The notes under the pieces are model-generated. The model ran no database searches, was not told the DNA's origin, and was given only the letters and a program-made list of their open reading frames with translations. 35,681 bases of DNA from the NCBI GenBank assembly GCA_937967625.1, contig CALCJP010000160.1, positions 1 through 35,681 on the forward strand, given 5' to 3'. Below, piece by piece: positions 13,402 through 24,886 of the stretch. Position 1 is the stretch's first letter. Each line of letters starts with the position of its first letter. The translations under genes were made by a program, and so were the position numbers. Origin of the DNA: an uncultured Saprospiraceae bacterium (GTDB taxonomy: Bacteria > Bacteroidota > Bacteroidia > Chitinophagales > Saprospiraceae).

Positions 13402-13625
13402 CAATCAAAATCAAAAGATTCAATCAAAAGATTCAATCAAAAGATTCAATCAAAATCAAAAGGTTTAATCAAAATCAAAAGGTTTAATCAAAAGATTCAA
13501 TCAAAATCAAAAGATTCAATCAAAATCAAAAGATTCAATCAAAATCAAAAGATTCAATCAAAATCAAAAGATTCAATCAAAATCAAAAGATTCAATCAAA
13601 ATCAAAAGGTTTAATCAAAATCAAA
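13402..13625 (+). repeat. Tandem array of 19-bp unit AATCAAAATCAAAAGATTC (with 13-bp short variants)
   Basis: About a dozen contiguous copies, GATTC or GGTTT endings; 13-bp variants lack one AATCAA hexamer. Confidence 0.95.
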
Positions 13626-13727
13626 ATTCAGCTTTGACTGATGCAATCAATCAAAATCAAAAACCCTCAAACTCAGAAAAGCGAAAGAAATTTCTAACTT
13701 TAGTTATTCAAACCAAAACATACTATA

Positions 13728-14090
13728 ATGAAAGAGAAATTATACAACCTGGAGGAGCGATTGGTAAGGTTTGCAGGTGAGGTAATTAATTTTTGTAATT
13801 CACTTCCTAAATCTCAGTCGGGACTTTATTACTCTGACCAAATCATGCGTTCTTCAGGAAGTGCTGCTTTGAATTATGGCGAGGCTCAAGGCGCAAATAC
13901 TTCCAAAGACTTTATTCATAAAATGTCAATTGTACTGAAGGAATTAAAAGAAACAAGGGTTTCCTTAAAAATTTTGAACTACGTAAATCAAGGCGAGGAA
14001 GAAAAACGAAATTGGCTATTAAAGGAAGTAAATGAATTGGTACCGATAAGTGCTAAAATGATATTGAATAAGAAAAGAGCAAACAGCTAA
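13728..14090 (+). CDS. Four helix bundle protein (S23/TIGR02436-type)
   Basis: MKEKLYNLEERLVRFAGEVINFCNSLPKSQSGLYYSDQIMRSSGSAALNYGEAQGANTSKDFIHKMSIVLKELKETRVSLKIL matches the family's conserved pattern. Confidence 0.9.
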   Translation: MKEKLYNLEERLVRFAGEVINFCNSLPKSQSGLYYSDQIMRSSGSAALNYGEAQGANTSKDFIHKMSIVLKELKETRVSLKILNYVNQGEEEKRNWLLKEVNELVPISAKMILNKKRANS

Positions 14091-14139: not shown

Positions 14140-14147
14140 AAAATTTT

Positions 14148-14306
14148 TGATTTTGATTGAGACCTTTTGATTTTGATTGAGACCTTTTGATTTTGATTGA
14201 GACCTTTTGATTTTGATTGAACCTTTTGATTTTGATTAAACCTTTTGATTTTGATTGAGACCTTTTGATTTTGATTGAACCTTTTGATTTTGATTGAACC
14301 TTTTGA
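14148..14306 (-). repeat. Tandem array TTTTGATTTTGATTGA(GA)CC (19/20-bp units), reverse complement of the 13402-13625 repeat
   Basis: About 8 contiguous copies; reverse complement GGTTCAATCAAAATCAAAA is the left-array unit. Confidence 0.95.
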
Positions 14307-15399: not shown

Positions 15400-15437
15400 T
15401 CCGCTTTCGCGAAATAAGCATATTTCGCGAAAGCGGA
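15400..15437. repeat. Perfect 17-bp-stem hairpin of paired CGCTTTCGCGAAATA motifs
   Basis: TCCGCTTTCGCGAAATA-agca-TATTTCGCGAAAGCGGA; lies just 3' of the ABC-F gene. Confidence 0.93.
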
Positions 15438-15464: not shown

Positions 15465-17099
<1,635 letters not shown>

Positions 17100-17177
17100 T
17101 CAAATTTTGCGCAAAAGTACTATTAGTCTTTTGTTTGGCGCATTTGTGGGGGGAAATAGTTTTTTGTTAACTTATTA

Positions 17178-17420
17178 ATTGTTTCGCTACTTCGTAGCTG
17201 ATTGTTGTGGCTTCGCCACTGATTGTTTCGCCTTCGGCTGATTGTTTGATTGTTTTTTTCTCGCTTTCGCGAAATGAGGCTATTTCCCGAAAGGGAAAAG
17301 CAATCAAACAGGGGCGAAGCCAAAACAATCAGCCGCAAAGCGGCGAAACAATCAGCGAAGCGAAACAATCCTTCGCCGTAGGCGGAACAACAATCAGCGA
17401 CAAAGTCGCAAACAAACCCT
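17178..17420. repeat. Inverted GATTGTT-word array with variable mini-hairpins, in a divergent spacer
   Basis: Eight mini-hairpins with 3-nt loops between GATTGTT / AACAATC words, centred on CGCTTTCGCGAAATGAGGCTATTTCCCGAAAGGG. Confidence 0.9.
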
Positions 17421-17528: not shown

Positions 17529-19088
17529 ATGGAAGAAAATCTCTATGTGGTCGAATCTAAAAAGCCATTTGGCGAAAGCCTCATCTGGAAACTCAATCGC
17601 GAATTTTATCAGGAAGAAGGGATTCATGCATGGAGCACCGGAGAAGTGCCTCATCACCTGACGAGCAATTCCAATGTCGGAAAAACTTATGCGCATTTAA
17701 TCTTTGGCTTCCTCAAGGACTTAGCGCAAAAGGGGCAAATGTCCCGCGTTTATTTTCTCGAATTGGGTGCCGGGCATGGGCGATTAGCATTTCATGTTTT
17801 GCGACATTTAGGAAGATTGATCAAAGAGATTCAGTTGGATTTGCCGCCTTATTGCTATATCCTAAGCGACATCGTGGAGGAGAATTTGACCTTCTTTGAA
17901 GAACATCCGCAGCTCCAAACCTATTATGATTCAGGGCAGTTGGATGTGGCATATTTTGATGCCGTAGCGGGCAAAGAATTGTCGTTACGGAAATCGGGTT
18001 TGAAGATTTTGCCAGAGCAATTAGACCAACCTATCATTGCGATTGGCAATTATTTTTTTGATTCGATTCCGACTGATGTGTTCCATTATGACCACATGCA
18101 AATCTCCACTTGTGAGGTTTCCATTGAGTCCACAGAACCCCCTTCCGGAAAATCCGCAAGAGAACTATTCAAGACCTCAAATTTGAAAATCCACAAAACG
18201 GTAATGGAAAAACCGTTTTATGAAGAAGCGGCGTTGAATGAGATTTTGGAGGCGTATCGCTCTACGCTGATGACTACCCACGTGTTCTTCCCAAAAATCG
18301 GAATAGAGTGTCTGAAAAACATCCGCAAGTTCTCCAAAAAAGGAATGCTACTCCTCTCAATGGACAAAGGCTCGCACGAATTGCATGATCTCGAAAACGC
18401 CAAAGAACCTGACATGGTGTCGCATGGCAGCATTTCGTTTTGGGTCAATTTTCATGCGTTGGGGGAGTATTGTAAGAAGACAGGCGGTAAGGCGATTTTT
18501 CCAAAATACTCGACTTATCATCTTGATTTGGCGTGCCTACTCTTTTTGCCGGAAGGCGAATCTTATACCGAAACCCAATTTGCCTACAACCTATTTGTCA
18601 ACGAATTCGGACCAGAAGATCTGACCTTGATGAAGAAGTTTTATTACAGCCACATCCGCAGTTTACGCTTACGCGAAATCGTCGGTTTGCTGCGCGTGAA
18701 TGGCTATGATTCTCAAATTTTTTCCAACGTATTGCCACGAGTCAAACAAGTGATTCAACAGATTACTTTTAACGAACGGAAGTTTTTGGGGCAAGCGATG
18801 CATGAGGTGTACAACACCTATTTCCACATCAACGAAAAGGAAGATTTAGCTTTTGAGATTGGCGGCATTTATTACGCGCTTGGGTTTTATCAAGAAGCAT
18901 TAGATTTCTTCGACCGCTCGGTCAAGCAATATGGTCAGACCCCTGATGAGTATTATAATCGGGCACTTTGTCATTATCAGTTGCGACAGGATGAGTTGTT
19001 TTCTAAAACACTGAAAGAGGCGAAAACTGCCTATCCGGGTTATGAGCAATTTGGGCATTTGGATAAGTTGGATTTGGGGGCGAAGTGA
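17529..19088 (+). CDS. Putative class I SAM-dependent methyltransferase with C-terminal TPR-like region
   Basis: YFLELGAGHGRLAFHVLRHL (motif I-like), YILSDIVEENLTFFE, IAIGNYFFDSIPTDVF; C-terminal GIYYALGFYQEALDFFDRSVKQYGQTPDEYYNRALCHYQL. Confidence 0.72.
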   Translation: MEENLYVVESKKPFGESLIWKLNREFYQEEGIHAWSTGEVPHHLTSNSNVGKTYAHLIFGFLKDLAQKGQMSRVYFLELGAGHGRLAFHVLRHLGRLIKEIQLDLPPYCYILSDIVEENLTFFEEHPQLQTYYDSGQLDVAYFDAVAGKELSLRKSGLKILPEQLDQPIIAIGNYFFDSIPTDVFHYDHMQISTCEVSIESTEPPSGKSARELFKTSNLKIHKTVMEKPFYEEAALNEILEAYRSTLMTTHVFFPKIGIECLKNIRKFSKKGMLLLSMDKGSHELHDLENAKEPDMVSHGSISFWVNFHALGEYCKKTGGKAIFPKYSTYHLDLACLLFLPEGESYTETQFAYNLFVNEFGPEDLTLMKKFYYSHIRSLRLREIVGLLRVNGYDSQIFSNVLPRVKQVIQQITFNERKFLGQAMHEVYNTYFHINEKEDLAFEIGGIYYALGFYQEALDFFDRSVKQYGQTPDEYYNRALCHYQLRQDELFSKTLKEAKTAYPGYEQFGHLDKLDLGAK

Positions 19089-24828: not shown

Positions 24829-24886
24829 CGCTTTCGCGAAATGAGATTCCCGATACATCGGGACAAGTGATTTCCCGAAAGGGAAA
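24829..24886. repeat. Palindromic element between susC and susD
   Basis: CGCTTTCGCGAAATGAGA, then TCCCGAT-ac-ATCGGGA (24848-24863), then TTTCCC-GAAA-GGGAAA (24871-24886). Confidence 0.9.

Follow-up and report, generated by a model that had tools for sequence, protein, structure and literature searches.

A previously undescribed repeat family scattered between the genes of one bacterial genus

Introduction

Several described systems resemble the DNA analyzed here. REP sequences and BIMEs are short GC-rich palindromes with GTAG or CGTC tags that occur in high copy number in intergenic mosaics (PMC3733652, PMC2817692), and published REP families are enriched between convergent and unidirectional genes (PMC3733652). 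In REPINs, two identical or near-identical palindromes are inverted at a fixed spacing and expand within one species (PMC3116915). Intrinsic (rho-independent) terminators consist of a GC stem followed by a T-rich tail, face out of the upstream gene, and lie just after stop codons. The BrickBuilt MITE of Porphyromonas gingivalis, an intergenic element of the Bacteroidota, occurs in ∼20 copies with short tandem repeats and predicted long stems (PMC4596501). Arrays of 7- to 8-bp words are found in intergenic DNA as the TAACTGA heptanucleotides of Beggiatoaceae (PMC4679880) and as the cyanobacterial STRRs. Finally, the Coxiella 23S rRNA intervening sequence (IVS) combines terminal inverted repeats with tandem heptamers beside an S23p/IVP ORF (PMC4990558).

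Here we describe a repeat family that is scattered between the genes of one bacterial genus. One of its copies lies in a 35,681-nt stretch of DNA, the whole of which was analyzed and is called the window. This copy had originally been predicted to fit no standard repeat class. Instead of a one-off, it proved to be a member of a dispersed REP/BIME-like family whose units satisfy the standard intrinsic-terminator pattern and always point inward. Judging from the sequence, we lean, with modest confidence, toward a non-coding dispersed mosaic of the REP/BIME kind that is predicted to serve as a two-way tandem terminator and 3′-end structure.

Results

The window copy spans positions 17177 to 17416 and follows a fixed layout in which GATTGTT words and mini-hairpins form a left arm, a REPIN-like core comes next, and the same units, inverted, form a right arm. 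The left arm (17177 to 17254; + strand, word polarity ">") holds five [A/G]ATTGTT words, AATTGTT at 17177 and GATTGTT at 17200, 17221, 17240, and 17248. Three mini-hairpins lie in between: GCTAC-TTC-GTAGC at 17186 to 17198, followed by TGATTGTTGT; GTGGC-TTC-GCCAC at 17207 to 17219, followed by TGATTGTTTC; and GCC-TTC-GGC at 17230 to 17238, followed by TGATTGTTTG. The stem test and terminator scan described below mark the first two as intrinsic-terminator-like on the + strand. The arm ends in a T-rich stretch, TTTTTCT (17255 to 17261), directly before the core (17262 to 17295; no strand assigned), which reads CGCTTTCGCGAAAT-GAGGCT-ATTTCCCGAAAGGG and is an inverted pair of the abundant ATTT-NNN-GAAA-NNN′ palindrome. 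The right arm (17300 to 17416; − strand by word polarity) carries AACAATC at 17324, 17347, 17364, and 17389, GCAATC at 17300, and a degenerate end, AAACAAAC. Its five mini-hairpins are GGC-GAA-GCC (17313 to 17321), GCCGC-TTT-GCGGC on the − strand followed by TGATTGTTTT (17332 to 17344), GC-GAA-GC (17355 to 17361), CGCC-GTA-GGCG (17374 to 17384), and GCGAC-TTT-GTCGC on the − strand followed by TGATTGTTGT (17397 to 17409); the second and the fifth are terminator-like. GC-GAA-GC, read as TCGCTTCGCT, is the commonest unit genome-wide. Thus, all eight of the mini-hairpins originally predicted are present, each with a 3-nt loop. By ORF-based gene calls, the copy sits in a divergent gap. On its left is an ABC-F ATPase gene (15465 to 17096, − strand), the start codon of which is about 80 (82) nt from the element and the product of which is at most 72% identical to proteins of named Bacteroidota. 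On its right is a gene with a weak SAM-methyltransferase (PF02636) match (17529 to 19088, + strand) that starts about 110 (108) nt away.

The longer stems of this copy exceed chance. Stems with a 3-nt loop were counted in 2000 dinucleotide shuffles of the element region: four stems of at least 5 bp were observed compared to 0.41 expected (0 of 2000 shuffles reached four), five of at least 4 bp compared to 1.34 (11 of 2000 reached five), and seven of at least 3 bp compared to 4.2. The last count was reached in 180 of the 2000 shuffles, and short hairpins are therefore not significant by themselves; it is the stems of at least 5 bp that lie beyond all shuffles, whereas the 3-bp stems are ordinary. 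The region is also exceptionally stable on both strands, with fold z-scores of −9.5 and −9.1 for RNA (two strands) and −8.8 for DNA. However, its lowest-energy fold is not a row of eight mini-hairpins but one long hairpin in which the two arms pair with each other, the mini-hairpins being an alternative local fold.

When the element was searched against the source genome, a draft of 278 contigs that is 64% complete, 114 matches were obtained, spread over many contigs. The statistics given here rest on 40 unselected stretches (330,515 bp, an unbiased sample) and on targeted matched loci. Four regularities were apparent. First, there were 25 clusters of at least four words in the source-genome sequence fetched, and 15 of these have both arms. 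Second, the words of a cluster switch orientation at most once, always from ">" to "<" (25 clusters), so that GATTGTT preceded AACAATC in 15 of 15 two-armed clusters and the reverse order was found in none. Third, a core palindrome lies at the switch point in 13 of those 15. Finally, the same layout as in the window recurs at ∼20 other loci, the longer copy-to-copy matches being only 74 to 75% identical.

Pairing of the stems is preserved across these copies. The rule used was ATTGTT, two bases, a 5-base arm, three bases, and a 5-base arm, and for the null the 3′ arms were dealt anew among the 78 units pairing at 4 or 5 positions. Perfect 5-bp stems after the word numbered 52, compared to a mean of 8.5 and a maximum of 17 in the null. 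The original prediction that pairing is kept thus extends to the family, whereas its other half, that stem sequence is free, does not stand, since a limited alphabet of stems recurs. The perfect ones are of only nine kinds, the commonest being GCCAC, GTGGC, and GCTGC; the alphabet also includes GCCGC, GTGAC, GCTAC, GTTGC, GCGAC, and others. Pairing is maintained while stem sequence moves within limits, and block copying is the simplest reading of stem variants that recur between loci. The loops across units are mostly TTC or TTT, but the uniform length of 3 nt seen in the window copy gives way to other loops elsewhere, for instance in GCCGT-TATC-ACGGC. Sister species have extra stems such as GCGAT-TTC-ATCGC and, in G004, a longer GTCCGCC stem. 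Mismatched stem intermediates (eight A.C versus four G.T) are too few to decide between selection on RNA and selection on DNA.

The center of the element is, as predicted, a different palindrome family, separate from the word arms and very abundant. The 330,515-bp unbiased sample holds 201 half-sites of ATTT-NNN-GAAA-NNN′ compared to 0 to 5 for motifs with an altered tag or loop, corresponding by extrapolation to some 1,900 in the draft source genome; this agrees with the definition of a REP as a palindromic unit of 20 to 40 bp with >100 copies per genome. The density is 6.1 per 10 kb in this genome and 0.02 in named Bacteroidota loci. Core stems vary with pairing kept (GCC, CCC, CGC, GAC, CAC, and others), and the spacing of inverted pairs is rigid, almost every exact copy measuring 34 nt. 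Besides 17262 to 17295, core pairs lie in the window at 15402 to 15435 and 24829 to 24883; the former is one of ∼30 perfect 34-nt copies of CGCTTTCGCGAAAT-N6-ATTTCGCGAAAGCG with identical halves. The source genome has 30 exact CGC/CGC pairs and the relative G001 has one, whereas a search of 39 other relatives returned none. The 6-nt centers of these pairs are distinct in 27 of 28 cases, with the halves identical. By form, the core is a REPIN with an unfamiliar tag. The word arms are intergenic. Of the core half-sites, 97 of 201 lie inside ORFs of at least 150 amino acids, with GCC, GGC, and CCC stems dominating; this is below the 83% ORF coverage but far from zero and is unusual for an extragenic palindrome.

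Dispersed copies with a common core could belong to a non-autonomous mobile element whose arms and core a Y1 transposase of the RAYT type, or some other enzyme, would recognize as hairpins in single-stranded form. Such an element would have been copied into intergenic DNA, and any terminator effect would be a by-product of landing downstream of genes. The source genome has four Y1_Tnp matches, the core has expanded in this species, and the DNA upstream of the ABC-F gene in G001 is alike, by eye, up to the left edge of the element (∼17171) and then diverges. The mirrored word arms form terminal inverted repeats, as in a MITE. However, no partner transposase came to light and there was no target-site duplication signal, the shared flank string being 3.14 compared to 3.22 with shuffled partners (low power, fuzzy edges), and the low identity between copies speaks against recent ones. 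At 6 per 10 kb, moreover, core half-sites are common enough to make their nearness to Y1_Tnp genes uninformative. A mobile origin is, in our estimate, unlikely. The four Y1_Tnp matches are themselves flanked by other hairpins. At three loci with Y1_Tnp (RAYT-like) genes, each gene has its own hairpin family; one has GGTGC-GTA-GCACC with GGCGC-ATA-GCGCC, and at another the gene lies between inverted hairpins.

The placement of the copies is uneven. Gaps, including the background, were classified from ORF calling rather than annotation. Convergent gaps hold 14 of the 21 classified copies (13 of 20 if both arms at one locus, L020, count once), compared to 18 of 135 unselected gaps (13%) in the unbiased sample, and divergent gaps hold 2 of 21, one of them the window copy. 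Many copies begin within ∼10 nt of a stop codon, often a few bases from both stops. The adjoining stop is TGA in 14 of 24 cases compared to 48 of 204 in the genome; often the word TGATTGTT provides this TGA, the first word doing so in about ten cases.

Read toward the core, a unit consists of a GC-rich 5-bp stem, a UUC or UUU loop, and at once TGATTGTTT, with UGAUUGUUU as the tail. A generic terminator scan of the window copy returned four sites (0.6 expected from shuffling); left-arm sites lie on the + strand and right-arm sites on the − strand. The same rule applied to 17 copies gave 57 inward and 0 outward sites, with 3.4 in total expected when shuffled; these are not 57 independent observations, because inverted arms and a T-rich word give an inward bias automatically. 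The tails have ∼5 T in 8 and are weaker than those of strong terminators. Ordinary terminator-like hairpins were also seen by eye in the source genome, for example downstream of a core half-site, and the element is thus not the sole way to end a transcript.

The family is not confined to one assembly. The doubled word GATTGTTTGATTGTT was found 42 times in the source genome, 13 times in G004, 13 times in G028 (another genus), 6 times in G001, and 3 times in G003, with 0 in G002 and G005 and 0 matches to the reversed control anywhere searched. The source genome is a fragmented, incomplete draft, and a chance or low-complexity artefact of metagenome assembly might be suspected. However, the same word is present in four other independent assemblies, units with stems recur in relatives, and the fold and stem statistics lie beyond all or nearly all shuffles. 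Recurrence in relatives already refutes a chance or low-complexity origin, and we give an artefact practically no credence.

The spacer upstream of the ABC-F gene lacks the element in G001, G003, G004, and G005. This comparison, proposed originally as a check on the pairing, says nothing about it, because the neighboring gene differs; as it does so in G028 as well, no empty site can be defined and the insertion cannot be dated. Other word arrays occupy the ABC-F upstream gap in G028 and G005 (CAACTTTCAATTCT; TTTTTGA, ATATGAA, and CACGCTC words). Attenuator control is known for some ABC-F genes, and a copy that sits in a divergent promoter spacer and folds so stably on both strands could be a structured regulatory RNA or an attenuator of the ABC-F or methyltransferase gene, located in its 5′ region. 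Against this stand the absence of the element from the four orthologous spacers, the rarity of copies in divergent gaps, an Rfam search of the element without a match, and a scan of the spacer for a sigma-70-like promoter, also without a match. We regard such an RNA as very improbable.

A good example of what changes between species is a convergent gap downstream of a small membrane-protein-like gene. The sister species G003 and G004 both have a GATTGTT element here, the first word of which supplies the TGA stop, whereas in G001 the same gap has CACAAAAGG words in inverted arms. This means that the inverted design can persist or re-form while the word is replaced. Downstream of the same gene in G000 are a core half-site and an apparent ordinary terminator, with a different neighbor. 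In G004, the gap appears to be duplicated in tandem and to contain arrays of both types, which may be due to the assembly. Replacement of the word at one orthologous gap would fit arrays that have little or no function and arise in place, through template switching or hairpin-templated synthesis: copies of the 8-bp word would multiply by slippage, and a polymerase that turns back and copies its own strand would make new, perfect mini-stems and the mirrored arms. The excess of perfect stems (52 compared to 8.5), the nearly all different centers between identical CGC/CGC halves, and the family-wide 7- to 9-bp word arrays that differ from locus to locus are in line with this. However, a small stem alphabet common to loci suggests that blocks were copied, not newly invented, and in-place generation alone does not explain the convergent preference and the fixed polarity. 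We hold it to be an unlikely account of the family.

Word arrays of other kinds are found around genes. In the window, a 23S_rRNA_IVP (PF05635) four-helix-bundle gene (13728 to 14090, + strand) is flanked at 13402 to 13626 and 14145 to 14306 by inverted CAATCAAAATCAAAAGATT and TTTTGATTTTGATTGAACC word arrays, in the same two-arm design as the element with the gene as payload. Further arrays lie at 4 to 60 and 2870 to 2980 (ACTGCNN; GACGGGA with an embedded GCCGCTTCGCTG mini-hairpin). Nearly every 23S_rRNA_IVP gene inspected by eye in the bacterial family is flanked by arrays of short words, mostly 7 to 9 bp and different at each locus, in the source genome and in other genera. Scored against a fixed threshold, 19 of 62 flanking windows adjoining IVP genes were periodic, compared to 1 of 30 next to Y1_Tnp genes and 10 of 124 from distal parts of the same loci. 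In 30 of 36, a GT-rich array on the left is matched by an AC-rich one on the right, the polarity of GATTGTT and AACAATC. A shared-7-mer test of the inverted flanks (median of 20.5 for IVP loci compared to 13 for background) is uninformative beside the periodicity and GT polarity tests. We found no description of inverted word arrays around IVP genes in the open-licence literature. The element may be the gene-less form of a family-wide class in which inverted, locus-specific 7- to 9-bp word arrays surround a payload, often a 23S_rRNA_IVP gene; a dedicated process, of which IVP proteins would be part, would write the mirrored arms and could exchange the word at a given site, in which case what is inherited would be the structure and not the sequence. 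This broader idea is doubtful, and we offer it as speculation.

Discussion

Inward polarity, convergent placement, and abutment on stop codons fit one explanation, namely, a two-way tandem terminator or 3′-end structure; stem covariation and the element that G003 and G004 share at one convergent gap also speak for it. Each unit is intrinsic-terminator-like, with a GC stem and a U-rich tail, and the units of both arms face an inverted pair formed by a second palindrome. An RNA polymerase leaving either flanking gene would therefore run through a series of weak terminators, while the 3′ end of the mRNA would gain protection from the stem-loops. Selection may then act on pairing and tail, in which case stems would drift by compensated changes and units would be gained or lost as blocks. 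The window copy counts against the terminator reading, as inward terminators in a divergent gap would serve neither neighboring gene; probably this copy is displaced, lacks function, or acts as an insulator.

If the arms do work as two-way tandem terminators, convergent genes would obtain their transcription ends from the family, and selfish palindromic repeats would be tied in a concrete way to 3′-end formation. The array swap at one gene pair amounts to a natural experiment that asks if a DNA structure can be passed on in bacteria when the underlying sequence is exchanged, and the association of arrays with IVP genes points to a testable role for the widespread IVP (S23) protein family.

Compared to REP and BIME sequences, the element shares short GC-rich palindromes in high copy number, mosaics that for the word arms are intergenic, enrichment downstream of and between convergent genes, and preserved stem pairing. 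However, it has no GTAG or CGTC tag; the flank is ATTT in the core or TGATTGTT in the arms, and CGTC is found only inside some stems. Its units all face inward in two arms with one switch per element, whereas BIME orientation alternates, and it has 3-nt loops, an 8-bp T-rich word, and a core from a second palindrome family. The core is like a REPIN in its two identical or near-identical inverted palindromes, its fixed spacing (34 nt in all), and its expansion in one species; it differs in that ATTT is not a known REP tag, the stems vary, word arms flank it, and the link to RAYT is putative. The units resemble intrinsic terminators in stem, tail, and orientation just after stops, but their 5-bp stems are short, the tail is weak, they are repeated in tandem in both directions, and they are known here from a sequence pattern. 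A position 3′ of the gene that is ended is not found for the window copy but is found for most others (14 of 21 convergent).

BrickBuilt, similar in host phylum, intergenic location, and copy number, is built of 23-nt direct repeats with a leader and tail that carry terminal inverted repeats, and it has neither mini-hairpin units nor the inward two-arm grammar. The TAACTGA sets share the short-word arrays, but these lack inverted arms and hairpins and consist of direct repeats, most of which precede start codons. Finally, although the element has no ORF and lies outside rRNA genes, the Coxiella IVS is like the IVP loci of this bacterial family in having inverted complementary arms around a payload and heptamer repeats beside the ORF.
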